Source of the DNA: Phycisphaerae bacterium
Lineage (GTDB): Bacteria > Planctomycetota > Phycisphaerae > UBA1845 > PWPN01
Reading direction: 5' to 3'
Length of the DNA stretch: 64,000 nucleotides
Assembly: GCA_030372985.1 (NCBI GenBank)
Contig: JAUCQB010000039.1
Location: forward strand, 1-64,000
The notes beneath the pieces are model-generated. The model was not told where the DNA came from, searched no databases, and was given only the letters and a program-made list of their open reading frames with translations. This document shows positions 47,655-59,199 of the stretch, in pieces. The stretch's first letter is position 1; each line of letters begins with the position of its first letter. The position numbers were made by a program, and so were the translations under genes.

Positions 47655-50600
47655 CTACTGATCGTCACAGGTCTTGGCTGCTGGAATACCCGCGCCGGTC
47701 GCGCAGATCTCGAACGCGTCGAGGTCGGGCGAGTCGATGCTGCCGCTCCCGTCGTGGTCCAGGCAGCCGCAACCGCCGGGGATTCCGCCTCCTGTTCCTG
47801 TGAAGCAGGCCTGGAGCTGGGCGAAGTCTGTCTGGTCCACGTCGCCGTCCGCGTCAGCATCGGCAAACGGGTTGGGGCAGTCCGTCGCCAGCGGGCAGTC
47901 GACACAGGCCTTGACGCTGTCGATCCAGCCTTGTCCGTTGCCATCGACGATGTTGTGGAACGCTGCAAACAGGAACGCACCGTTGTCGAACTCGTCGGTG
48001 ATAGCGGCGCCAGCGAGGCCTTCGCCCAGACTGTCGGCGTCCCATCCGCCAAGGACCTTCCCTGAGCCCGTGTCGAAGCTGATGCCCGGGCGTGAGGCCT
48101 CCGTGGGCCAGACGCTGTAGACGGCGCCGGCGTTCTGGGAGAAGCCGACCTTCCAACCATTCTGGTCGAGTTCGATGGTGACCACCAGCGGCTTGGCGGG
48201 CGTGATCGAATGCACGTTCGTCAGTTCGAAAACCACCGGCGTTTCGAGCCCGTTGGCGTCCTCGCCACTTGTAGCCTCCGGGTGGGTGGAGTTCACCACA
48301 CGAATGCTGCCCTTCACGGTGATGTTCTCGGTGGGTGAGTCGACGTAGCCGCTGTAGTACAGATTCACGTACAGACCGCCCTGCGTGTTCCGGTAGAGCT
48401 CGCTCCAATAGGTGTTCGCGGCATTTGCAGAGATGACGCCCAGTTCGTGAGAGCATTCCGCGTCATCGGCGTTGGGCCAGCCGGTGCTGCCGCCGGCGGC
48501 GGTCAGCTGGACATAGTTGATCACCCATTCGATACGGATGCCGTCGGCGTTCATGAACGGGAATTCACCCGCGGGCTTGGAGGAGATCCCGGTCCAGACG
48601 TACGGACCCGAGATGCCCAGGATCTTCAGAGAGCTGTCTGCCTCCGACGGAGCACCCTTGGCCTGGTACGGCACGTACCATCCGCCGCCGACACCGTTCA
48701 CGTTCGTGCCGACGGCGTTGTCGTCGAAATCGTCGTTTACATACATTCCGCCCACGATGACCAGGCTCGAATCGATCTGGATGCTGTCGCCGCCCAGCCA
48801 ACCGGAGGCGGCGTTCGGCGTGGCGGTCAGAATCGTTGTGCCGTAGCCTCCGCTGACGGGGGTCACGGTCAGCACCGCGCTGGTCAAGCCGTCGGGAATC
48901 GGATAAGCGGTACCAGGCGTTATGGCCACGACGCCGTAACCCGGTATGTCGACGGAGACTGTGACGATCGACGTGCTGAAGGAGAACGTGAGCTCAAGCC
49001 CGCTGGAACTCTGGCCGGAGGGCGCCGACAGCGTCACGTTCACCGGCGTCAGGTTCGTCGGGTCAACGAACTCAATTTCGTGAATATCGAACGTCATGGC
49101 CACCGAACCGTAGTGGGCGCCGATCCGTTCGGGCGACAGCGCCGTGTCGTAGATGGCCACTTCGTCGATCTTGCCCGGGAAGCCCCAGTCGCCCTGCGGG
49201 TCGATGGTGCCGATCTGGAAGTTGCCCAGGAAACCGGTGGGCGGCAGCAGTTGGAAGTCGGCCTGGTTGATGACTTGCACGCCGTTGACGTAATAGTCCA
49301 ACTTGCCTGCGTTGAACACCGACACCACGTGGAACCATTGTTCACCCTCCGGCAGACCGCCGGGGATGGACCCGTTCACGTACCACTCGGGGAGGTTCTC
49401 GACACCTATGGTCGCGTCGCTGGTCCGCATCTCCAGGGCGTAGTGGGGGTTATCATAATCGTCGGCGCTGGATACGATACCGGGCCGGTAATTGAAGAAC
49501 GGCCAACCGAAGTTGTCGCTTCGATATTTGATCCCCGCTGCCGGGGCGATCCAGGCCTCGATAGTCCCCACTCCCGTCCAGACTCCGGGCGATGTTTCCT
49601 CAACAAGTTTGAAGGCGTCCACAGCTCCCATGCTGACCATGCCACCGCTCTTGCCGCTGTTGTCCAGTGCCAAGGCCTGTCCTCCGCAAAAACCCGAAGT
49701 CCAGTCAATGGGCTCGACGAGCGTGCCGTTGTGGCCGTGGCCCGAGTTGTCGGTGACGGAGGTGGTGTCGCCCTCAAAGCTGTAGTAGCCGATCGGAGCG
49801 TCGGCCATGACCTGGGCGGCGTAAGCTGCCCTGCTGGGTAGCGGTGTCGTGGGCGGAGCGACGCCGACCGCGGCCAAGTAGTGCTGGGCAATCGCGCTGT
49901 CGCTCACCTGGCCGGCATAGACGGCCACCTCATCGATCAGGCCGACGAACCCACCGGCGCCGTTCGGCTCAGCCGCACCGATCTGGAACGTCGCATCCGT
50001 CTTCGCGCCAAGGAACCCCCAGAAATCGCCGAGCAGGATGCCGTTGACAAAGATCCGAGTGGTCGGGTAGCCGTAACCCTCGTAATCGGGAGTGAACACG
50101 AACGCGACGTGATACCACTGATCCGACCGGAAATCCCAATACTCCGGGTGATAGCCCATGATCCCGCCGTAGACGCCCCACCCGAGCCGCGTCTTCTCAA
50201 GGTGCATACTCCAGCGGCTGGAAGGGTTGGGATCGCCGCCCGACGTGACGTCGCGCACGGAGGCCAGCGCCGGATTGGAGCTTGGCGGTGTCACCGGATC
50301 CCAGCTTGGGCGAACCCACATCTCCACCGTGCCGGGTGTGGCCAACTCCGCTGACTGACCACCGAAGGCAAACTCGGCAACCGCGCCAAAAGTGACCCAG
50401 CCCGTCCCAGTGAGCGACAGAGCGTTGCCCGCCCCGCCGAAGCCTTCACCGTCTGCGGTGAAGGCCGCCGTCCCTTGCAGCGTGCCGGTGGGGTCCGGCA
50501 ACGCGGTCGTGTAAGTGTCTGACACGCTGGGCGCCGAGTCGTCGTCGAAGGTGAAGTAGCTGATGAGGTTCGTCTCGGCATTGACCGCGTCCTGATACTC

Positions 50601-50678
50601 GTTCAATCCGGCGAAGGCCGCCGGCAATCCCAGAATGGCCGTCAGCACGACCGTCGCGAGTAGACTTCTGCAAAGCAT
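47655..50678 (-). CDS. Exported LamG protein with dockerin-like tail
   Basis: A 1007-residue secreted protein. Signal peptide MLCRSLLATVVLTAILGLPAAFA. Two LamG/concanavalin-like domains follow, each opening with a YYSFEGD-type strand: residues about 30-255 (NLISYFTFDDDSAPS.., YHVAFVFTPDY..) and about 275-500 (PIGYYSFEGDTTSVTDNSGHG.., WFHVVSVFNAGKLDYYVNGV). Next is an Ig-like segment, a third jelly-roll-like region (DDFDDNAVGTNVNG.., WIDSVKACVDC), and a tail with two EF-hand-like repeats (ADADGDVDQTDFAQLQACFTG; DHDGSGSIDSPDLDAFEICA). The tail resembles type I dockerins, but no cohesin is seen. The ATG at 50678 has GGAGGG upstream. A glycan-binding surface role is likely; two 21-bp-spaced operator half-sites lie upstream. 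Confidence 0.85.
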   Translation of the reverse strand: MLCRSLLATVVLTAILGLPAAFAGLNEYQDAVNAETNLISYFTFDDDSAPSVSDTYTTALPDPTGTLQGTAAFTADGEGFGGAGNALSLTGTGWVTFGAVAEFAFGGQSAELATPGTVEMWVRPSWDPVTPPSSNPALASVRDVTSGGDPNPSSRWSMHLEKTRLGWGVYGGIMGYHPEYWDFRSDQWYHVAFVFTPDYEGYGYPTTRIFVNGILLGDFWGFLGAKTDATFQIGAAEPNGAGGFVGLIDEVAVYAGQVSDSAIAQHYLAAVGVAPPTTPLPSRAAYAAQVMADAPIGYYSFEGDTTSVTDNSGHGHNGTLVEPIDWTSGFCGGQALALDNSGKSGGMVSMGAVDAFKLVEETSPGVWTGVGTIEAWIAPAAGIKYRSDNFGWPFFNYRPGIVSSADDYDNPHYALEMRTSDATIGVENLPEWYVNGSIPGGLPEGEQWFHVVSVFNAGKLDYYVNGVQVINQADFQLLPPTGFLGNFQIGTIDPQGDWGFPGKIDEVAIYDTALSPERIGAHYGSVAMTFDIHEIEFVDPTNLTPVNVTLSAPSGQSSSGLELTFSFSTSIVTVSVDIPGYGVVAITPGTAYPIPDGLTSAVLTVTPVSGGYGTTILTATPNAASGWLGGDSIQIDSSLVIVGGMYVNDDFDDNAVGTNVNGVGGGWYVPYQAKGAPSEADSSLKILGISGPYVWTGISSKPAGEFPFMNADGIRIEWVINYVQLTAAGGSTGWPNADDAECSHELGVISANAANTYWSELYRNTQGGLYVNLYYSGYVDSPTENITVKGSIRVVNSTHPEATSGEDANGLETPVVFELTNVHSITPAKPLVVTIELDQNGWKVGFSQNAGAVYSVWPTEASRPGISFDTGSGKVLGGWDADSLGEGLAGAAITDEFDNGAFLFAAFHNIVDGNGQGWIDSVKACVDCPLATDCPNPFADADADGDVDQTDFAQLQACFTGTGGGIPGGCGCLDHDGSGSIDSPDLDAFEICATGAGIPAAKTCDDQ

Positions 50679-50978
50679 CACGGAATACCCTCCAGATAAG
50701 GGAAGCGGGGGAAACACCGCTTCGGACACCCCTGCTCGGTTCTTGTTATCGATCAAAACCCGCGGCACCGAGAGATGGAGCCAATCCGGCCTTGCCACTG
50801 GCCGGCGACGGTGACTCTCGCGTGGTTTTCGGACGCCCTTCTCGCGTTCCCTCCATCAACAGAGCGGGACTGCGGGTCTTATACCCTGTACTCTAACAAG
50901 CATGTGGGGAAAGTGATATGCCAGTTTGCGACAGTCCATTGCCTTTTTGCGTCATGGCGTTCAGCAGGGGGTGTGTGG
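50679..50978 (-). promoter_or_regulatory. LamG promoter with AraC-type direct-repeat operator
   Basis: Read on the minus strand, TGACGCAAAAAGGCA (50940-50954) and TGTCGCAAACTGGCA (50919-50933) share 12 of 15 bases and are spaced exactly 21 bp, two helical turns, as AraC-family proteins bind. TAGAGT (50890-50895) lies 35 bp past the second CGCAAA and could be the -10 box. The regulator gene ends 25 bp away. Nothing else is recognised in this 300-base gap. Confidence 0.7.
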
Positions 50979-52148
50979 CTACTCGCGGCGGTTCGACCGA
51001 TTGGCGGCCGTGCGGCGGAAGAGTGACGGCTGGTATCCGGTCACCTGCTTGAAGAGAACGGTCAGGCGCGCAGTGCTGCCGATGCCGCACTGCTGGGCGA
51101 TGACCGAGAGCTTCAGGTCCGTTTCGGCCAGGAGATGCTTGGCTTTCTCGATTCTCATCCTCCGGATTCTCTCCAGAATGGAGTCGCCGACAGCGGCCCG
51201 GAACCGCCGTTCCAGCGTGCGACGGCAGGTCCCGATTGCCTCGACGACCCCATCCACACTGATATTCTCCGCGAGGTGCTCGCGGATCCAGATAAGCGCG
51301 GCGGCCACGTCGGGGTCCTCCACCGCTGTGGTTTCGGTGGATTGCCGGGCAACCACATGGGTCGGTGGAATGCTGACGCGCAGTTGCCTGGGGGATTCGC
51401 CCGATAACAGCCGGTCCAGCAGTCCGGCCGCTTCATATCCGATCTGCACCCCGGGGTTATGCACGCTGGACAACGGCGGATGACACAGTCGGCATTCGAA
51501 CTCGTCGTCGTCGACGCCTATCACCGCAACCTCATCCGGGACGCGAAGGCCCAGTTGATGGCACGTGTCCACCAGGTCCCGGCCGGGCTTGTCATGAGAG
51601 GCCAGAACCCCGACAGGCTTGGGCAGCCTGAGCAGCCAGCTCTGGACCGACCGGCTGAGACCTTGCCAGCTTGCGTCCAGAACCGGGACAGGCCGGTATT
51701 CCGCGTGACAGACGAAGGGGGTGAATCCCGCCTGCGCCAGACGTTTGCTGAAGCCCGCGGCCCGCCCCATGGAACATCCTCCTCCGGCGCTTCCCAGAAA
51801 ACCGAAGCTACGGAACCCGCGGTCGAGCAGGTGTTCCGCTGCCAGGCGTCCGACTTCGAGGTGATCCACGTCCACCAGCGGCCCTTTCCAGGCGGTGATC
51901 ATGCTCGATGTGTTCACGGCCGGCACATCGCAGCGGGCGAGCCTCCGGGCAACCTCCTCGTCGAACAGGCTGCAGATCACACCGTCGGGTTTCCACATCC
52001 GCATGGGGCGAAGGGCCCGGATGTCTGCGCGGGCGTCATGAAAGACCCAACCTCGGGTGATGGCGTATTCGTGAACGCCCTGCAAAACCCGCCGGCAAAA
52101 ACCGATGTCCTGTCCGATCAACAATGCGACTCGACGAGCACGGGACAT
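50979..52148 (-). CDS. XylR-type AraC family transcriptional regulator
   Basis: A 389-residue activator. Residues about 1-265 form a periplasmic-binding-protein (LacI-like) sugar sensor: VALLIGQDIGFCRRVLQGVHEYA, SMITAWKGPLVDVDHLEVGRLAAEHLLDRGF, GVLASHDKPGRDLVDTCHQLG and PDEVAVIGVDDDEFECRLCHPPLSSV. Residues about 280-380 form the AraC double helix-turn-helix: WIREHLAENISVDGVVEAIGTCRRTLERRFRAAVG and LLAETDLKLSVIAQQCGIGSTARLTVLFKQVTGYQPSLFRR. This layout matches XylR of enteric bacteria. The ATG at 52148 is chosen (GGGGAAA upstream). It sits between two surface-protein operons, each with CGCAAA half-sites 21 bp apart, its probable targets. Confidence 0.92.
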   Translation of the reverse strand: MSRARRVALLIGQDIGFCRRVLQGVHEYAITRGWVFHDARADIRALRPMRMWKPDGVICSLFDEEVARRLARCDVPAVNTSSMITAWKGPLVDVDHLEVGRLAAEHLLDRGFRSFGFLGSAGGGCSMGRAAGFSKRLAQAGFTPFVCHAEYRPVPVLDASWQGLSRSVQSWLLRLPKPVGVLASHDKPGRDLVDTCHQLGLRVPDEVAVIGVDDDEFECRLCHPPLSSVHNPGVQIGYEAAGLLDRLLSGESPRQLRVSIPPTHVVARQSTETTAVEDPDVAAALIWIREHLAENISVDGVVEAIGTCRRTLERRFRAAVGDSILERIRRMRIEKAKHLLAETDLKLSVIAQQCGIGSTARLTVLFKQVTGYQPSLFRRTAANRSNRRE

Positions 52149-52773
52149 GGGTTGATTTCCCCGACACTCCATTCCGGCACCTTTCGCAGAAAAGAACAAC
52201 CGGGACGGCCGATGTCATGTGGCGCGAATGGAAGTGCTGCAATGCTATCTCCGCCATTATCCGTCTCGCGCAGAATGATGTCCAGCGCGGAATCGCCAGG
52301 TTTCACCAAATCCCTTGATGAGTCGATCTTGGCTCGAGCTCGGTGGGGGCAGGTGCGCTACCAGGGTGACCGAGCATACGGGGTGAATGACTACCGCGAT
52401 CGTCGCAGAAGCCTTTCACCCACAATGTCAGAAGATATCAGCCTTGATTCACCGCAGACCAAAGATGGGGCGATGCAGCAAGGCAAATAACCTGCAGTCA
52501 ACCGTGGTGCAGACTCGCGGCACGGATTCGCACTTGTCAGGGGTCTGCGACGGCCGCGAGAGTCTCCAGCGATGCCGGCGTCCATGCCGGGCAACAGGCG
52601 TCCGGCGCAAACCGACAAGGCTTTTGCGCAAAATGATATTCCCGCGCCGCCGATACTACGGTTATCATTCTATACAGGTGGCAGGCATGATGCAGCGATC
52701 GCCTCTGGTGCTGCCGTTCGGTCAGCGGGGGATCGTTTGTCGCATGCCAACGCAGTTTCGGAGATGTCAGAGG
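52149..52773 (+). promoter_or_regulatory. Regulatory region with second AraC-type operator
   Basis: A 625-base divergent gap. On the plus strand CGCAAA occurs at 52606 and 52627, exactly 21 bp apart, within 15-mers (52603-52617 and 52624-52638) that partly match the LamG-side half-sites. TATCAT (52663) lies 36 bp past the second CGCAAA and could be the -10 box. The promoter-proximal half-site also forms TTTTGCGCAAAA, and ATGATA/TATCAT make an inverted pair. No gene is supported in the rest. Confidence 0.6.
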
Positions 52774-53610
52774 ATGCCGTTTCCAAGAACGATGTCAGTG
52801 GACAGCTTGGTTTTACGGCGAGGGGCGAGGCCGGTTCGTCCGGGCGAGAACCGGCTCCGGCAGCCGGGTTTTACGCTGATCGAAGTACTCGTCGTGGTGG
52901 CGATCATCGCTCTGCTGATCGCGATCCTGCTCCCGTCGCTTTCCAAAGCTCGCGAACAGTCGCGGCGGGTGGTCTGCCAGAATAATCTGAGGCAGCTTCA
53001 GCATGCGTTTGTCTTCTATCTTTCAGATCACAAGAGCATATTCCCACCGCACCGCACGAAGGTCCGGGAAGGCACCAAGGGCCGGGATGACCTCGGAGAG
53101 TGGGCATGGTTCCAGCAACTGGAGCGATACACGAAGTCTCCTGAGATACCTCACTGTCCGACGCTGGCGAATCACGTACAGGAAGACTCGGGTATCGTCT
53201 GGTCATGGGGCTACAACCGGCTGGATATCGGCTACGGTTACAACGCGTGGTTCCTCGGGCTTTGGAATCATGCGACCAACGGCGGCTATGAAGAATATGC
53301 CGGTCTTCGGAGCCATCCGTGGTTTCCGGAGAGTCGCGTCAAGAGCCCGTCGCGCAATATTCTGCTGGCGGATGCCAACCCGAAAAATGACCGGTTGTTC
53401 GGCGGGCAGTTGTGGTGGCCCTTTGTCGACGGCGACACCGGTGGGACGGGTGAGGGCGTCAACGTCAGGAGGCACCAAAAAGGCGGCAACATCGTCTTCA
53501 ACGACGGCCACGCCGAGTTTCGCAGGGAGGGGACCATTAACCCTCCGGCGGGCTCGCCGAACAAATACCTGCAGTATTGGGACCCGCTTCTGCGGCGCGC
53601 GCAACCGTGA
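52774..53610 (+). CDS. Prepilin-like protein with N-terminal methylation motif
   Basis: A 278-residue protein of the large planctomycete type IV pilin-like group. The cleavage/methylation motif is [20 protein letters not shown], followed by the helix and [26 protein letters not shown], in which the VCQNNLRQ motif is typical. The C-terminal domain ends with the signature [20 protein letters not shown]. Such proteins may build pseudopili or surface layers; their real role is not known. The start is uncertain: the track frame goes back to 52387, and ATG 52774 (GGAG 10 bases upstream) is a compromise. The AraC-type operator lies about 150 bases upstream. Confidence 0.85.
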
Positions 53611-53856
53611 CGTGGGAACAACCGGGGTCCGGTTGACCGCAGGAGCCGGTTGAGACAAGGCGGCGTATCGAGAGGGGAGGTGAAAAGAAACTCACGGCGC
53701 AATCAGGTCCTGTAAGCTGTTGCCACTCCGTTCCTGCTTGCCTTGTGAGGGGATGCTTGAATAGGATTAGAAATGGAGGATCTGCGAGAGCAGCCGGCCG
53801 TTGTCGGCCGGCAGGTGTCACGCTTGGACTGAACTAACATGAATGGAGGAGAAAAC

Positions 53857-54699
53857 GTGAGAACTTCTATCTGGACTGTTTCAATTGTAGCGCTCCTTGT
53901 GGCGGCGGGCATCGCCAATGCTGCGAATGTCCCCGCGGGAGTGACCGGGCTGTGGCGGTTTCAAACCGAAGCGGACAAGCTGACGGCCACGATGGGCGTG
54001 GATCTCACCACCAGCAACGCCGGCAACAGCGCCTGGTTTTCAGGTCCCTGGACCGTCATCGAGCCCGAGCTGAGCGACGGCGGTGTCGTTCAGGAACGGA
54101 GTTGGGATTACCTGACGGTCAACCCCAGCTTCGTCGCCAACGGCGGCGGCAGCTATGTTAACCAGTACACGGTTGCCGTAGATTACGTGCAAACATCGGA
54201 CGGGGGGTGGTGGGAGGGTGAGCAATACAACAGCCTGTTCCAGACGTCATGGGATGGCAATGAAAATGACGGCGATCTGTTCATCAAGGGGCCGGATCGT
54301 GCCAACTCCGTCATCGGCACCGGTGACACTGGTTACTCGACACTGACCTATGGCGCGTCCAAGTGGCACAGAATCGTCTGGTCCGTTGACAACAGCAGCT
54401 TCTTCCGAGTCTATGTTGACGGCGTTCTGTTCCTCGACGCGCCAGGCCAGGGCGTTGATGGCAGGTTCTCGCTCTATCCGGACCGCTTCAATCTCTTCGC
54501 AGATAACAGCTGGGAAGATGCGTGGGGCTTGGTCGGCACGGTAGCGACGTGGAACCGCGCTCTGTCGAGTGAGGAAATCGCCCCCATGGGCGGATGGATC
54601 GACGGCGCTGCAACGCCGACAAAGCTGGTGATTCCGGAACCGGCGACGCTGGCCCTGCTGCTGAGCGGGCTCCCGCTGCTGCGACGTCGTCGGGCATGA
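53857..54699 (+). CDS. PEP-CTERM lectin-like (LamG) surface protein
   Basis: A 280-residue exported protein. Signal peptide MRTSIWTVSIVALLVAAGIANA, a LamG/concanavalin-like body (VTGLWRFQTEADKLTATMG.., SKWHRIVWSVDNSSFFRVYVDGVLFLD), and a C-terminal PEP-CTERM sorting signal: IPEPATLALLLSGLPLLRRRRA (Pro-Glu-Pro, helix, Arg cluster), recognised by exosortase. The GTG at 53857 is chosen because GGAGGA lies just before it. Much of the body matches the N-terminal domain of the next gene product, so they share a binding module. It ends 79 bases before a strong terminator. Confidence 0.88.
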   Translation: MRTSIWTVSIVALLVAAGIANAANVPAGVTGLWRFQTEADKLTATMGVDLTTSNAGNSAWFSGPWTVIEPELSDGGVVQERSWDYLTVNPSFVANGGGSYVNQYTVAVDYVQTSDGGWWEGEQYNSLFQTSWDGNENDGDLFIKGPDRANSVIGTGDTGYSTLTYGASKWHRIVWSVDNSSFFRVYVDGVLFLDAPGQGVDGRFSLYPDRFNLFADNSWEDAWGLVGTVATWNRALSSEEIAPMGGWIDGAATPTKLVIPEPATLALLLSGLPLLRRRRA

Positions 54700-54777
54700 A
54701 GCCGACACCGCTGTGTTTTCTGTCCAGGTTCGGCCGGCTTGGAGCGGCGCCTGGATCAGGACAAGGTTAGTTTATCC

Positions 54778-54822
54778 GTGCCGGGCGGGAGCGTTCGGCT
54801 GCCGCCCGGCACTTTGTTTGCG
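54778..54822 (+). terminator. Terminator after the PEP-CTERM gene
   Basis: A perfect 11-bp stem GTGCCGGGCGG / CCGCCCGGCAC with a 13-base loop followed by TTTGTTTGCG. It separates the PEP-CTERM gene from the phosphoesterase gene. Confidence 0.75.
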
Positions 54823-54858
54823 CCAAGTCTCGGCGTGTCCGCGCGGAGAGTGTTCCTC

Positions 54859-57219
54859 GTGCATCGTATCGGCCGCCTGACGAAACCCGTCCTGCGTGCT
54901 GCCTGCCTCTGTCTCATGTGGTCGGTCAGACCCGTGGCCGCGCAGAGCATCGGCCAGTGGGACTTCGACGCGGGCAACCTGTCGGCAACCAGCGGCGCGG
55001 TGATGGAATACTATGGCAGCACGACGGCCTCCCAGACCCAGTTCGGCACCACGACCTTCTTCGGCATTCCCAATATCGGCGGTTCGGTTGCGTCGGTGAT
55101 GAGGTTTCCCGCATGTCTGTCGAGCGAAGGCTATGTCGTGCACACCAACGCTCCGGGCAACGGCGGCGGCGCATACATCAATCAATACTCGCTGGTTCTG
55201 GACGTGCTGTACCCGACGGCCAGCACCAATTCCTGGCGGGCTATCTTCCAGACCTCGCGCACCAATGGCAACGACGCCGACTTCTTCGTGGGCAACGGCA
55301 CGACGACCCCGAGCGCGAACGGCATTGGAGTCGCCGGTCAATACCACGGCGTAATTCAGCCGAACACGTGGTATCGCGTGGCAGTCACGGTCGATCTCGC
55401 CACGCTGACCATGGCCAAGTACATCAACGGCTCGCCGGTTGGAACCCAGTTGCTGGCCGACTCCTTGGATGGCCGGTGGTCTCTCTACTCAACCAACACG
55501 GCCCCCGATTGGCTGCTCCTGTTTGCAGACGAGGACAATGACACGAAAGCCGGTTACGTCAACAGCGTGCAGTTCCGCGATTACGTCATGTCGGCCCTTG
55601 AGATCGCCGAACTCGGCGTCCCCAGTGCCAGCGGTATCCCCCTTCCGACGGCCCCGACCGACCTGCAACTGGTGGGCCCCAACGGCGGCGAGCACTGGCA
55701 GGCCGGCTCCACACAGACCGTCTCCTGGACCGTGACAGACCCGAGCGGCGTGGTCAACATCGAGCTGTACGACGGGGCCGCGCTGCGGGCCCGACTTGGG
55801 CGGGCGCCCATGGCCGACGGCCAGTTCATCTGGTCAATCTCGCCGTACCTGGGTGACTCCGCGGACTATCGCGTGAAGATCTCGGCAGCCGCGTTCCCTG
55901 AGGTCTCGGACACGTCCGACGCGTCCTTTGAGGTTTACGGAACAGTACCGGAACCAACGGTTATCACCACGTTGCCGATGCTGCAAGACGCACGCCCGGA
56001 CGCGATGAATCTCATCTGGGAAACAAGCGGCCATGGGACCCCCAATGGGGTCGATTTCGGCCTGAGCGATGTATCGGAGAACACGATCACCGACGTTATG
56101 ACCCAGCAGCTCGACGCCACTCACTTCATCCACACGGCCACGATTCAACCATTGCAGGTCGAGACGGTCTACAAGTACCGTGTGCGAAGCGGAGATACCA
56201 CTTCGGCAACGTATTCCTTTCGGACCGCCCCGCGGCCCGGCACCCCAATCAGGATAGTCTGGTTCGCCGACGAGCAGGGCTACACGATCTTCCGGCAGCA
56301 GGTTCCGCACATGGCCGCCCGCGATCCAGATCTCGTGCTGGTGGCCGGTGATCTGATGAACGACGGGACAAGTATCGCCCAGTGGCAGGATTACTGGTTC
56401 GGCCCGCTGGAGCTGGGCAATCTGGCCCAGACCACGCCTGTCCTGTTCTGCCGCGGCAATCACGACGGTGAAAGCGCCTTGGCCTACGCATACAGCGTGC
56501 TGCCGGGCAACGAGGCCTGGTTCGCCTTGACATATGGAAGCACCCGTTTCATCTTCCTCGATACGAACATTCAGACCGCCGAGCAGACTTCCTGGCTCGA
56601 AAATGAACTCGCCTCAACGGAGGCCCAACGCGCCTCATTCCGCGTGGTCAGCTTTCACAAGCCTCCCTACACCGACCTGTGGGATAGTCCTGGATACAGC
56701 GGTGAGGCCTTCGTTCGGGAGAACTGGGTGCCGCTGTTCCAACAGTACAAGGTTGACGTCGTCGTGAGCGGTCACACGCACGCCTACCTGCGCGGCCTGA
56801 GCGACAACGTGATGTACATGATCGTCGGCGGTGCCGGCAACACCATCGACACCTATACGAGCTACGTCTGGGGCTTCTTCACGGTCAAGCAGTCCATACA
56901 CCACTACGGTGTCATGGAGATTGACGGGTATTCCCTGGCCTGGAATGCCTACGACGTGAACGATGTGCTCTTTGATTCGTACGAACTGGTCAGCCGAACA
57001 CCGTTCTGCCCGGCCGACTTCGACGGCGACACGGACGTCGATCACGACGACTTTGCCCTCCTCCTGCCTTGCATGAGCGGGCCGGATGTCTCTGCCGCAC
57101 CGAGCTGCTCTCAGGAAGACATTGACGCGGACGGCGACGTGGACCAGACAGACTACGGTCTGTTTCAGCGGTGCTACAGCGGCTCGAATGAGGTTGCGCC
57201 TGCGAATTGCGCGCAGTGA
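54859..57219 (+). CDS. Exported lectin-metallophosphoesterase with dockerin-like tail
   Basis: A 786-residue secreted enzyme. Signal peptide (LTKPVLRAACLCLMWSVRPVAAQ), LamG-like domain (about 25-230) matching the preceding PEP-CTERM protein, a short Ig-like domain (LQLVGPNGGEHWQAGSTQTVSWTV), an Fn3-like domain typical of purple acid phosphatases (about 355-460), and a calcineurin-type metallophosphoesterase: RIVWFADEQG, LVLVAGDLMND, LFCRGNHDGE and DVVVSGHTHAYLRG. The first motif has D-E-Q where D-x-H is common. The tail has two dockerin-like EF-hands (FDGDTDVDHDDF, DADGDVDQTDY). The GTG at 54859 is chosen (GGAGAG upstream). It probably strips phosphate from an extracellular substrate. Confidence 0.9.
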   Translation: MHRIGRLTKPVLRAACLCLMWSVRPVAAQSIGQWDFDAGNLSATSGAVMEYYGSTTASQTQFGTTTFFGIPNIGGSVASVMRFPACLSSEGYVVHTNAPGNGGGAYINQYSLVLDVLYPTASTNSWRAIFQTSRTNGNDADFFVGNGTTTPSANGIGVAGQYHGVIQPNTWYRVAVTVDLATLTMAKYINGSPVGTQLLADSLDGRWSLYSTNTAPDWLLLFADEDNDTKAGYVNSVQFRDYVMSALEIAELGVPSASGIPLPTAPTDLQLVGPNGGEHWQAGSTQTVSWTVTDPSGVVNIELYDGAALRARLGRAPMADGQFIWSISPYLGDSADYRVKISAAAFPEVSDTSDASFEVYGTVPEPTVITTLPMLQDARPDAMNLIWETSGHGTPNGVDFGLSDVSENTITDVMTQQLDATHFIHTATIQPLQVETVYKYRVRSGDTTSATYSFRTAPRPGTPIRIVWFADEQGYTIFRQQVPHMAARDPDLVLVAGDLMNDGTSIAQWQDYWFGPLELGNLAQTTPVLFCRGNHDGESALAYAYSVLPGNEAWFALTYGSTRFIFLDTNIQTAEQTSWLENELASTEAQRASFRVVSFHKPPYTDLWDSPGYSGEAFVRENWVPLFQQYKVDVVVSGHTHAYLRGLSDNVMYMIVGGAGNTIDTYTSYVWGFFTVKQSIHHYGVMEIDGYSLAWNAYDVNDVLFDSYELVSRTPFCPADFDGDTDVDHDDFALLLPCMSGPDVSAAPSCSQEDIDADGDVDQTDYGLFQRCYSGSNEVAPANCAQ

Positions 57220-57234
57220 TCCGCGCCATCACGC

Positions 57235-59199
57235 TCATTCCTGGATCGTCGGGAACTCCGTGATCCGCAACCGGGTGCTGCCATACGGGATGAGTTCCAG
57301 ATCGGTCGTCGGCTCGTTTGAGACCGCAGGGCTCATCGGCGGATCACCGGCGGAATTGTGCTCCAGCTTCCACCCGGGAAGGGCCCTGCCCTTGGCCTTC
57401 AGCGTGACGGGTGCGGCGTCTTGTGCGAAAGGGATCTTGCCGACCGCCCGGGTTGCCACGGAAACCGATTGCTCGGGTCTGCCGCGATCCAGAAGCAGGC
57501 CGTAGTTCCAGGGCGTCGCAGGGTGAATCGCCCAGTCGTTGACAGGGAACTTGTCATGGTGGGATCTCAGCTTCTCATATCGCTCGCCGATCTTAAGCGA
57601 GAAGCAGAGCGGTCCGCGGAGGATCGCGACCGAGTTGTTGTACCGTGGCTCGGTACGCAGGTTCATCGGCAGCGAGATCGTAACCACCTCGCCTGGGTCC
57701 CACATCCTGTCGACGACGGCGAATCGCCCTGCTTCCGCGGGCGTCTCCGTGCCCATACACACGACCCGGGCACCCGTGGCCCAGACAGGGATGCGCAGAT
57801 GAAGCGGAAACCGGGTGGGGCGAGGCGACTCCAATACCAGTCGAACGACCCCGTCAAACGGATAAGCCGTTTCCTCCGAGATGGTGACTTCCTGGCCGTC
57901 GGCCACCTTGGCCTTGACCTTGCACGGTCCGTAGGCGACGGCGGCCAAGCCCTGATCGTGCGTGGCCATCCACAGGTGCGACACGAGCTTGGGCCAGCCT
58001 TGATGCATGTTGGCCGTGCAGCATCCGTAGTTCGGCTCCAGACCGTATATGTTCGATGTGTCGTCGTTCCCGTGGCTCCATTGCCGCTTGGCGATTGTAC
58101 ACAGCACCTGGTTGGCCTGCTGGTCGAACTGATGGGCCCAGTAATCCGGCATGCACGTACCGGGGTTGGCGTTGTACGCCAGTCGCTCGAGTCGATCGGC
58201 GAAGGCGACGTCCCCGAGGATCTCGACCAGCTTCTCCATGGAGAACATGTACTCGACCACGCCACACAACTCCGTGCCCTGCGTCGGTCGCTTTCCCGAC
58301 AGGTGCTCGTCGCCGCCGAACCCGCCGGCGACCTGCCCGTGATGCTCGTCAAGACTGGCAATTCCCTGGTACGACGCCTTCCGGTCGCGCTCGTCGCCGG
58401 ATCGGAGGTGCCAGAGGGCCGGGTTCTTGACCGCCATGGCATTGTTCACATCGTGCGTGAAGTGTGTGTATTTGAGCCCTGCCTTCAGGGCCTCTGTGGT
58501 ATAGGGGAAGTCGAGGAAAAACGGTGTCCAGTCAAAGCAGCTCCTGTGAATCGAGTCTGCTGCCTTGAGAATCTCCGCGTCGCCGGTTCGGTTGTACAGC
58601 CAGAACGCGCTGACAACATGCTCCATGGCTCTCACTCCGCGCCATTCGGTGTCGGGCCAGTCGGGCGGCGTACGGTTGATGTACTTGAAGTAGTTTGTGA
58701 GCAACGGGATCACCCGGGCGTCGCCGGTGGCTTCGTGATACTGTGTGAGGACCTTCATGGCGACGGCCCGCGGCCAACGGTCCTTGTTTTTGGCCGGGCC
58801 GAACCAGCCGTCCGGCTGCCCGCTCGCCAGAATCCACTCGATCCACACCTTGGCCTTGGCGATCAGGCGCGCATCGTCGAGTTCGTACGCCAGCGGGACC
58901 AGGCCGTCGAGGTAGTATGGGCCCCGCTCCCAGCCGTCGCCCGTTCCGCCTTTCCAGGCCGACTGGGCCAGATCGGGCCAGAATTCGTCCAGGTGCCCCG
59001 TCAGTCCTTCTGCCTGGATACGAAGCTGATCGCGCAACCAGCCCTGTGGTTTCACGGCCCCCAGGGGCAGTTCAACAAACCGAGTTTGTCTGAGCGGAGG
59101 GCGGCTTGATGGGTAATGCCTGTTTGCGGCCTGCCCCCTCGCCACAGAGACCAGGGGCGGCAACACCAGGACAACGCAGGCAAGTACCAGGCGATTCAT
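57235..59199 (-). CDS. Beta-L-arabinofuranosidase-type glycoside hydrolase (GH127 family, formerly DUF1680)
   Basis: A 654-residue exported enzyme with signal peptide MNRLVLACVVLVLPPLVSVARG. The (alpha/alpha)-barrel core includes GGTGDGWERGPYYLDGLVPLAYELDD, GWFGPAKNKDRWPRAVAMKVL, AGGFGGDEHLSGKRPTQGTELCGVVEYM and the family hallmark EPNYGCCTANMHQGWPKL, in which the Cys pair helps bind the zinc that activates the nucleophile Cys in HypBA1-type enzymes. It removes L-arabinose or related residues from plant-type glycans. The ATG at 59199 has AAGGAA upstream. It is divergent from the malectin-domain gene with 72 bases between, and convergent with the phosphoesterase. Confidence 0.92.
   Translation of the reverse strand: MNRLVLACVVLVLPPLVSVARGQAANRHYPSSRPPLRQTRFVELPLGAVKPQGWLRDQLRIQAEGLTGHLDEFWPDLAQSAWKGGTGDGWERGPYYLDGLVPLAYELDDARLIAKAKVWIEWILASGQPDGWFGPAKNKDRWPRAVAMKVLTQYHEATGDARVIPLLTNYFKYINRTPPDWPDTEWRGVRAMEHVVSAFWLYNRTGDAEILKAADSIHRSCFDWTPFFLDFPYTTEALKAGLKYTHFTHDVNNAMAVKNPALWHLRSGDERDRKASYQGIASLDEHHGQVAGGFGGDEHLSGKRPTQGTELCGVVEYMFSMEKLVEILGDVAFADRLERLAYNANPGTCMPDYWAHQFDQQANQVLCTIAKRQWSHGNDDTSNIYGLEPNYGCCTANMHQGWPKLVSHLWMATHDQGLAAVAYGPCKVKAKVADGQEVTISEETAYPFDGVVRLVLESPRPTRFPLHLRIPVWATGARVVCMGTETPAEAGRFAVVDRMWDPGEVVTISLPMNLRTEPRYNNSVAILRGPLCFSLKIGERYEKLRSHHDKFPVNDWAIHPATPWNYGLLLDRGRPEQSVSVATRAVGKIPFAQDAAPVTLKAKGRALPGWKLEHNSAGDPPMSPAVSNEPTTDLELIPYGSTRLRITEFPTIQE

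Follow-up and report, generated by a model that had tools for sequence, protein, structure and literature searches.

The window (the whole 64,000-nucleotide stretch analyzed here) encodes a XylR-like regulator at positions 50979..52199 on the minus strand, with a Peripla_BP_3 sugar-sensor-like domain and an AraC-type HTH_18 domain detected by Pfam. Its start codon is uncertain and may be the TTG at 52199 or a later ATG. Scores exceeded the Pfam cut-offs for Peripla_BP_3 (111 bits), HTH_18 (62 bits), and HTH_AraC (33.6 bits), and the PBP1_XylR N-terminal model scored 20.5 bits, below its cut-off of 27 bits. The best solved relative is Escherichia coli XylR (4fe7; E value, 9.8e-55), aligned over residues 8-395. 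Like other members of the XylR subfamily, the 406-residue protein joins a LacI-type periplasmic-binding-protein domain to an AraC-type double helix-turn-helix at its C terminus, in a DNA-binding domain spanning residues 290-406. No xylose genes were found beside the regulator gene; GH127 and GH5 genes are present nearby in the window.

On the same strand, positions 47655..50678 hold an open reading frame for a secreted protein with a signal peptide and two LamG domains (Laminin_G_3; PF13385). The initial annotation had called this gene LamG/dockerin; Pfam recovered Laminin_G_3 and no dockerin at E≤0.001, and we keep the first half of the label. Divergent from the regulator gene is a plus-strand gene for a prepilin-type secreted protein (52747..53610; N_methyl/DUF1559, PF07963 and PF07596; start codon uncertain). 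It is probably cotranscribed with two genes on the same strand. The first encodes a LamG-like protein (53839..54699; PF13385 barely above cut-off) whose C terminus resembles a PEP-CTERM sorting signal, and it has no operator of its own. The second encodes a secreted metallophosphoesterase with a LamG-like domain (54739..57219; PF00149, PF16656, and PF13385) and is followed by the GH127 and GH5 genes.

Paired half-sites flanking the regulator gene

Between the LamG and regulator genes, two related 15-mers are repeated in one direction on the minus strand. The distal half-site of this candidate operator (operator 1) is TGACGCAAAAAGGCA at 50954-50940, and the proximal half-site is TGTCGCAAACTGGCA at 50933-50919, with its 3' end abutting the expected -35 position. 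Rereading the sequence bore out the geometry given in the initial annotation: the 15-mers are identical at 12/15 positions and lie 21 bp apart, start to start; the -10-like TAGAGT (50895-50890, minus strand) starts 35 bp beyond the start of the second CGCAAA; and 25 bp separate the operator from the regulator stop codon, which ends at 50979. A leader of ∼200 nucleotides (window 50678-50890), measured from the -10 element to the ATG of the signal peptide, would precede the LamG coding sequence, and the distance is similar in two genomes from another genus of the same family (G009 and G010). No Rfam match was found in the region.

When the 297-bp intergenic stretch was shuffled 2,000 times, a match of at least 12/15 arose at exactly 21 bp in 4 shuffles and at any spacing of 16 to 40 bp in 102. 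Taken by itself, the pair is moderately unlikely and suggestive only; it stands above chance because it recurs in the window, in the genome, and in related genomes. We consider it extremely improbable that the repeat arose by chance within a short intergenic region. A pair at any spacing does turn up in ∼5% of shuffles, but chance would also have to account for a second copy, conservation between genera, a class-wide spacing peak, and a conserved -10 offset.

The second copy, operator 2, reads CGCAAACCGACA-N9-CGCAAAATGATA, again 21 bp apart, at 52606-52638 on the plus strand, divergent from the regulator gene. Its core, CGCAAA-N15-CGCAAA (52606-52632, plus strand), lies 5' of the prepilin-type gene on the regulator's far side, and a pattern match placed the -10-like TATCAT (52663..52668, plus strand) 36 bp past the second CGCAAA. 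The proposal of an operator for the LamG gene therefore holds as far as the site is concerned but not as to its being specific to LamG, since the twin serves the divergent prepilin-type gene.

Pattern searches of the 6.45-Mb genome returned four exact matches to CGCAAA-N15-CGCAAA, two of which flank the regulator gene. With the extended pattern CGCAAANNGRCA-N9-CGCAAANNGRCA and at most one mismatch, operators 1 and 2 were the sole matches in the genome, operator 1 being the unique pair with no mismatch; three further matches each had three mismatches. Within the window, two matches to the extended pattern were observed versus 0.01 expected. The motif first suggested for such scans, TGNCGCAAANNGGCA, was too strict to describe a family: it occurred as just four single copies genome-wide, with no pairs besides the reported one, and is better replaced by CGCA[AT][AT]-N15-CGCA[AT][AT]. 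One exact half-site, CGCAAACAGGCA, stands without a 21-bp partner near the 5' end of the GH127 gene (window 59117-59128, minus strand). The genome's only other full-length XylR-like relative (L006; G000:C172:15087-16250) is 37% identical to the regulator and adjoins a prepilin-type gene; no CGCA pair was found in its flanks.

Spacing and promoter position across the class

We examined the 600-bp flanks of XylR-like regulators from the same class that are 33 to 42% identical to the one in the window. At the first 36 loci, 8 pairs of CGCA[AT][AT] occurred at 21 bp, 2 at 22 bp, and at most 1 at any other spacing. A further 80 loci, fetched after the motif had been fixed and thus serving as an independent test, yielded 17 pairs at 21 bp, 5 at 22 bp, 3 at 20 bp, and 0 to 3 elsewhere. 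After thinning to <60% identity, 81 regulators retained 20 pairs at 21 bp and 4 at 22 bp, with each remaining spacing between 10 and 50 bp represented by 2 pairs or fewer. The initial annotation had made its proposal depend on an excess of 21-bp pairs near related genes, and that excess is present and strong. Counting 5-mers without reference to the motif gave the same result: among all combinations of word and spacing, the two highest were GCGCA at 21 bp (14 versus 0.5 expected) and CGCAA at 21 bp (13 versus 0.9). Before the core was fixed, coding periodicity obscured the general self-similarity of the flanks at 21 bp. The 21-bp peak was much weaker at 1.5 to 5 kb from the regulators.

No such peak appeared in the sequences flanking 30 cupin-type AraC regulators from this class, which bears on the question of which protein reads the sites. 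AraC-type domains are alike and adjacency alone does not prove cognacy, so the operators could be real and yet be recognized by a different AraC-type protein encoded in the genome. We regard this as very unlikely, given that the excess of 21-bp CGCAWW pairs is seen at XylR-like and not at cupin-type regulators of the class, that two copies flank this particular XylR-like gene, and that a genome in which the prepilin target has moved retains a 70%-identical regulator.

Strict pairs within 600 bp were found at only about a quarter of the class regulators, which means that many of these proteins must rely on variants or on different sites. In 24 of 34 cases, the operator lay upstream of the regulator gene, in divergent orientation. 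Little CGCAWW at 21 bp was seen near regulators of other classes; the letters are confined to the class, and the spacing apparently is not. At loci from elsewhere in the phylum, in other classes (L147, L150, L151, L153, L163, and L165), TGAGA is repeated at exactly 21 bp near XylR-like regulators, often before the regulator gene itself (6 pairs versus 0.3 expected, several of the loci being close relatives). These repeats have the same geometry with different letters.

The promoter elements are also held at a fixed distance. Among 32 distinct operators, TAnnnT lies 34 to 37 bp beyond the second core in 20, compared with ∼0.4 per offset elsewhere, and matches to TATAAT at five or more of six positions peak at 35 bp past the second core. 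Across 15 genomes, the combined pattern of pair plus -10 element gave 41 matches versus 7 for a reversed control. At both window sites, the half-sites point in the same direction ∼21 bp (two helical turns) apart, as in a tandem operator, with the proximal one beside the -35 position and at a fixed distance from the -10 element. The window promoters have -10-like elements at 35 and 36 bp and poor -35 hexamers at both. With a 17-bp spacer, the -35 hexamer would come immediately downstream of the proximal half-site, the arrangement seen at class II promoters of the AraC type. The window's own genome has a third match to all three elements, G000:C261:1767-1828 (CGCAATAAGACGGCGCTGTGCGCAATAACGG..TAACGT), with no XylR-like gene in the 6 kb examined there.

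Based on these sequence patterns, we think it reasonably likely that CGCA[AT][AT]-N15-CGCA[AT][AT]-N28..31-TAnnnT serves throughout one planctomycete class as an operator-promoter code through which a large XylR-like family switches secreted, prepilin-type, and LamG surface proteins. If true, regulons would be readable from sequence, with other classes of the phylum keeping the 21-bp geometry in different letters. One class genome (G322; L200-L206) carries a dozen near-identical operators (CGCAAAATGATAAAA..CGCAAAATGGCGTTT), mostly before genes for prepilin-type, LamG, or other secreted proteins and several without an adjacent regulator; these are apparently one larger regulon. One regulator in G322 is flanked by operators on either side, just as the window regulator is.

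Orthologous loci in a second genus

In both G009 and G010, a regulator 70% identical to that of the window is followed by a LamG gene whose product is 36 to 37% identical. The gap between them contains TGACGCAAAATGATAATCGATTTACGCATTGG, with TAACAT or TAATAT at 35 to 36 bp. The distal half-site of operator 1 is kept there as TGACGCAAAA and the second half-site is degenerate (CGCATTGGCA), and the operator forms a conserved island inside an otherwise diverged intergenic region. A rigid 33-bp pattern found no match at these 70%-identical orthologues with up to 4 mismatches, and a relaxed pattern revealed the expected site.

The gene divergent from the regulator in these genomes differs from that of the window and is esterase-like by eye. 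The orthologue of the window's prepilin gene lies on another contig (72% identical; next-best paralogue, 37%) and is preceded there by CGCAAAAGGACAAGTCATTTACGCAATG and TAATAT. The window's prepilin-type protein has many relatives at E≤1e-10 (40 matches in G000, 61 in G009, and 67 in G010). In the 6.9 Mb of G009, the three-element pattern (pair plus -10) matched just the LamG and prepilin sites; in G010, it matched these sites and two others. Both target genes have thus kept the operator despite the changed gene order, and this is the strongest evidence that it functions as a regulatory site. No pair was found within 6 kb of a more distant, 50%-identical orthologue (L029).

Mode of action and relation to known systems

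The pair at 50919-50954 (minus strand) and its twin at 52606-52638 (plus strand) are very probably operators for the XylR-like regulator whose gene lies between them, and we predict that it binds and activates from both. The original reading of the site as an AraC-type direct-repeat operator of the adjacent regulator is thus supported by the enrichment at 21 bp, the conserved -10 position, and the operator that followed a moved target. We propose that a regulator dimer, joined through its periplasmic-binding-protein-like domain, would sit on one face of the DNA, each half-site being occupied by an AraC-type reading head made up of two helix-turn-helices. The proximal head would abut the -35 position, where the promoter has a poor hexamer. 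Binding of a small ligand by the sensor domain, most likely a sugar released from a polysaccharide, may then lead to recruitment of RNA polymerase. We predict that the LamG protein and the prepilin-type/LamG/phosphoesterase operon would be induced together.

We infer activation rather than repression from two features, the site geometry and the weak -35 hexamers. The regulator could instead own the operator and repress, binding beside the -35 position and blocking RNA polymerase until a ligand releases it. Its sensor domain has a LacI/GalR-type fold, the best-known members of which repress, and the proximal half-site is near enough to occlude the promoter. Repression nevertheless seems unlikely to us: tandem sites with the proximal half abutting -35, a fixed -10 offset, and poor -35 hexamers fit class II AraC-type activation, and in the AraC family it is activation that goes with direct repeats placed upstream of -35.

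Activation of this kind would resemble several E. coli systems in part. E. coli XylR has the same domain order as the window regulator, with a periplasmic-binding-protein-like sensor and an AraC-type DNA-binding domain. On the xylF side, we read from the sequence alone the cores CGTAAT and TGTAAT (positions 243 and 264), in one direction and exactly 21 bp apart; no clear CGCA pair was found on the xylA side. The core CGTAAT differs from the window's CGCA[AT][AT], and the targets differ as well, being xylose isomerase and transporter genes in E. coli and LamG and prepilin-type surface proteins in the window. E. coli AraC binds two direct half-sites 21 bp apart at araI1-araI2, and the proximal half-site adjoins the -35 hexamer. 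The window operators share this 21-bp direct arrangement and the proximal site by -35, but the cupin arm that serves AraC as a sensor is unrelated to the LacI-type fold of the window regulator, and the letters of the half-sites also differ. No looping partner site of the AraC kind was identified at the window operators. MarA, SoxS, and Rob have the same AraC-type reading head and bind as monomers to one asymmetric box; the box is single for these proteins and doubled at the window operators.

As a kind, the AraC/XylR tandem operator is already known. Our literature search, which covered a limited set of journals, returned nothing on this motif, on the spacing to its promoter, on its use across the class, on the conserved two-gene surface regulon, or on XylR-like operators in planctomycetes. 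Very little is known of how planctomycetes regulate their DUF1559/prepilin-type and LamG surface proteins, of which their genomes encode dozens. An operator that is short, searchable, and held at a fixed promoter spacing would tie named regulators to named targets, and regulons could become predictable across the whole class, including in uncultured organisms.

The first recognition helix offers a possible basis for the letters. Arg occupies position 327 in 27 of 28 regulators with this operator versus 59/88 in the rest of the class, and Glu occupies position 330 in 28/28 versus 74/88, in raw counts uncorrected for kinship among the regulators. E. coli XylR has Ser at position 327 where the window regulator has Arg. 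In a hand alignment, positions 327 and 330 fall on the base-contacting MarA residues 42 and 45. The association of Arg327 and Glu330 with the CGCA core is suggestive and provides a concrete residue-to-base hypothesis.
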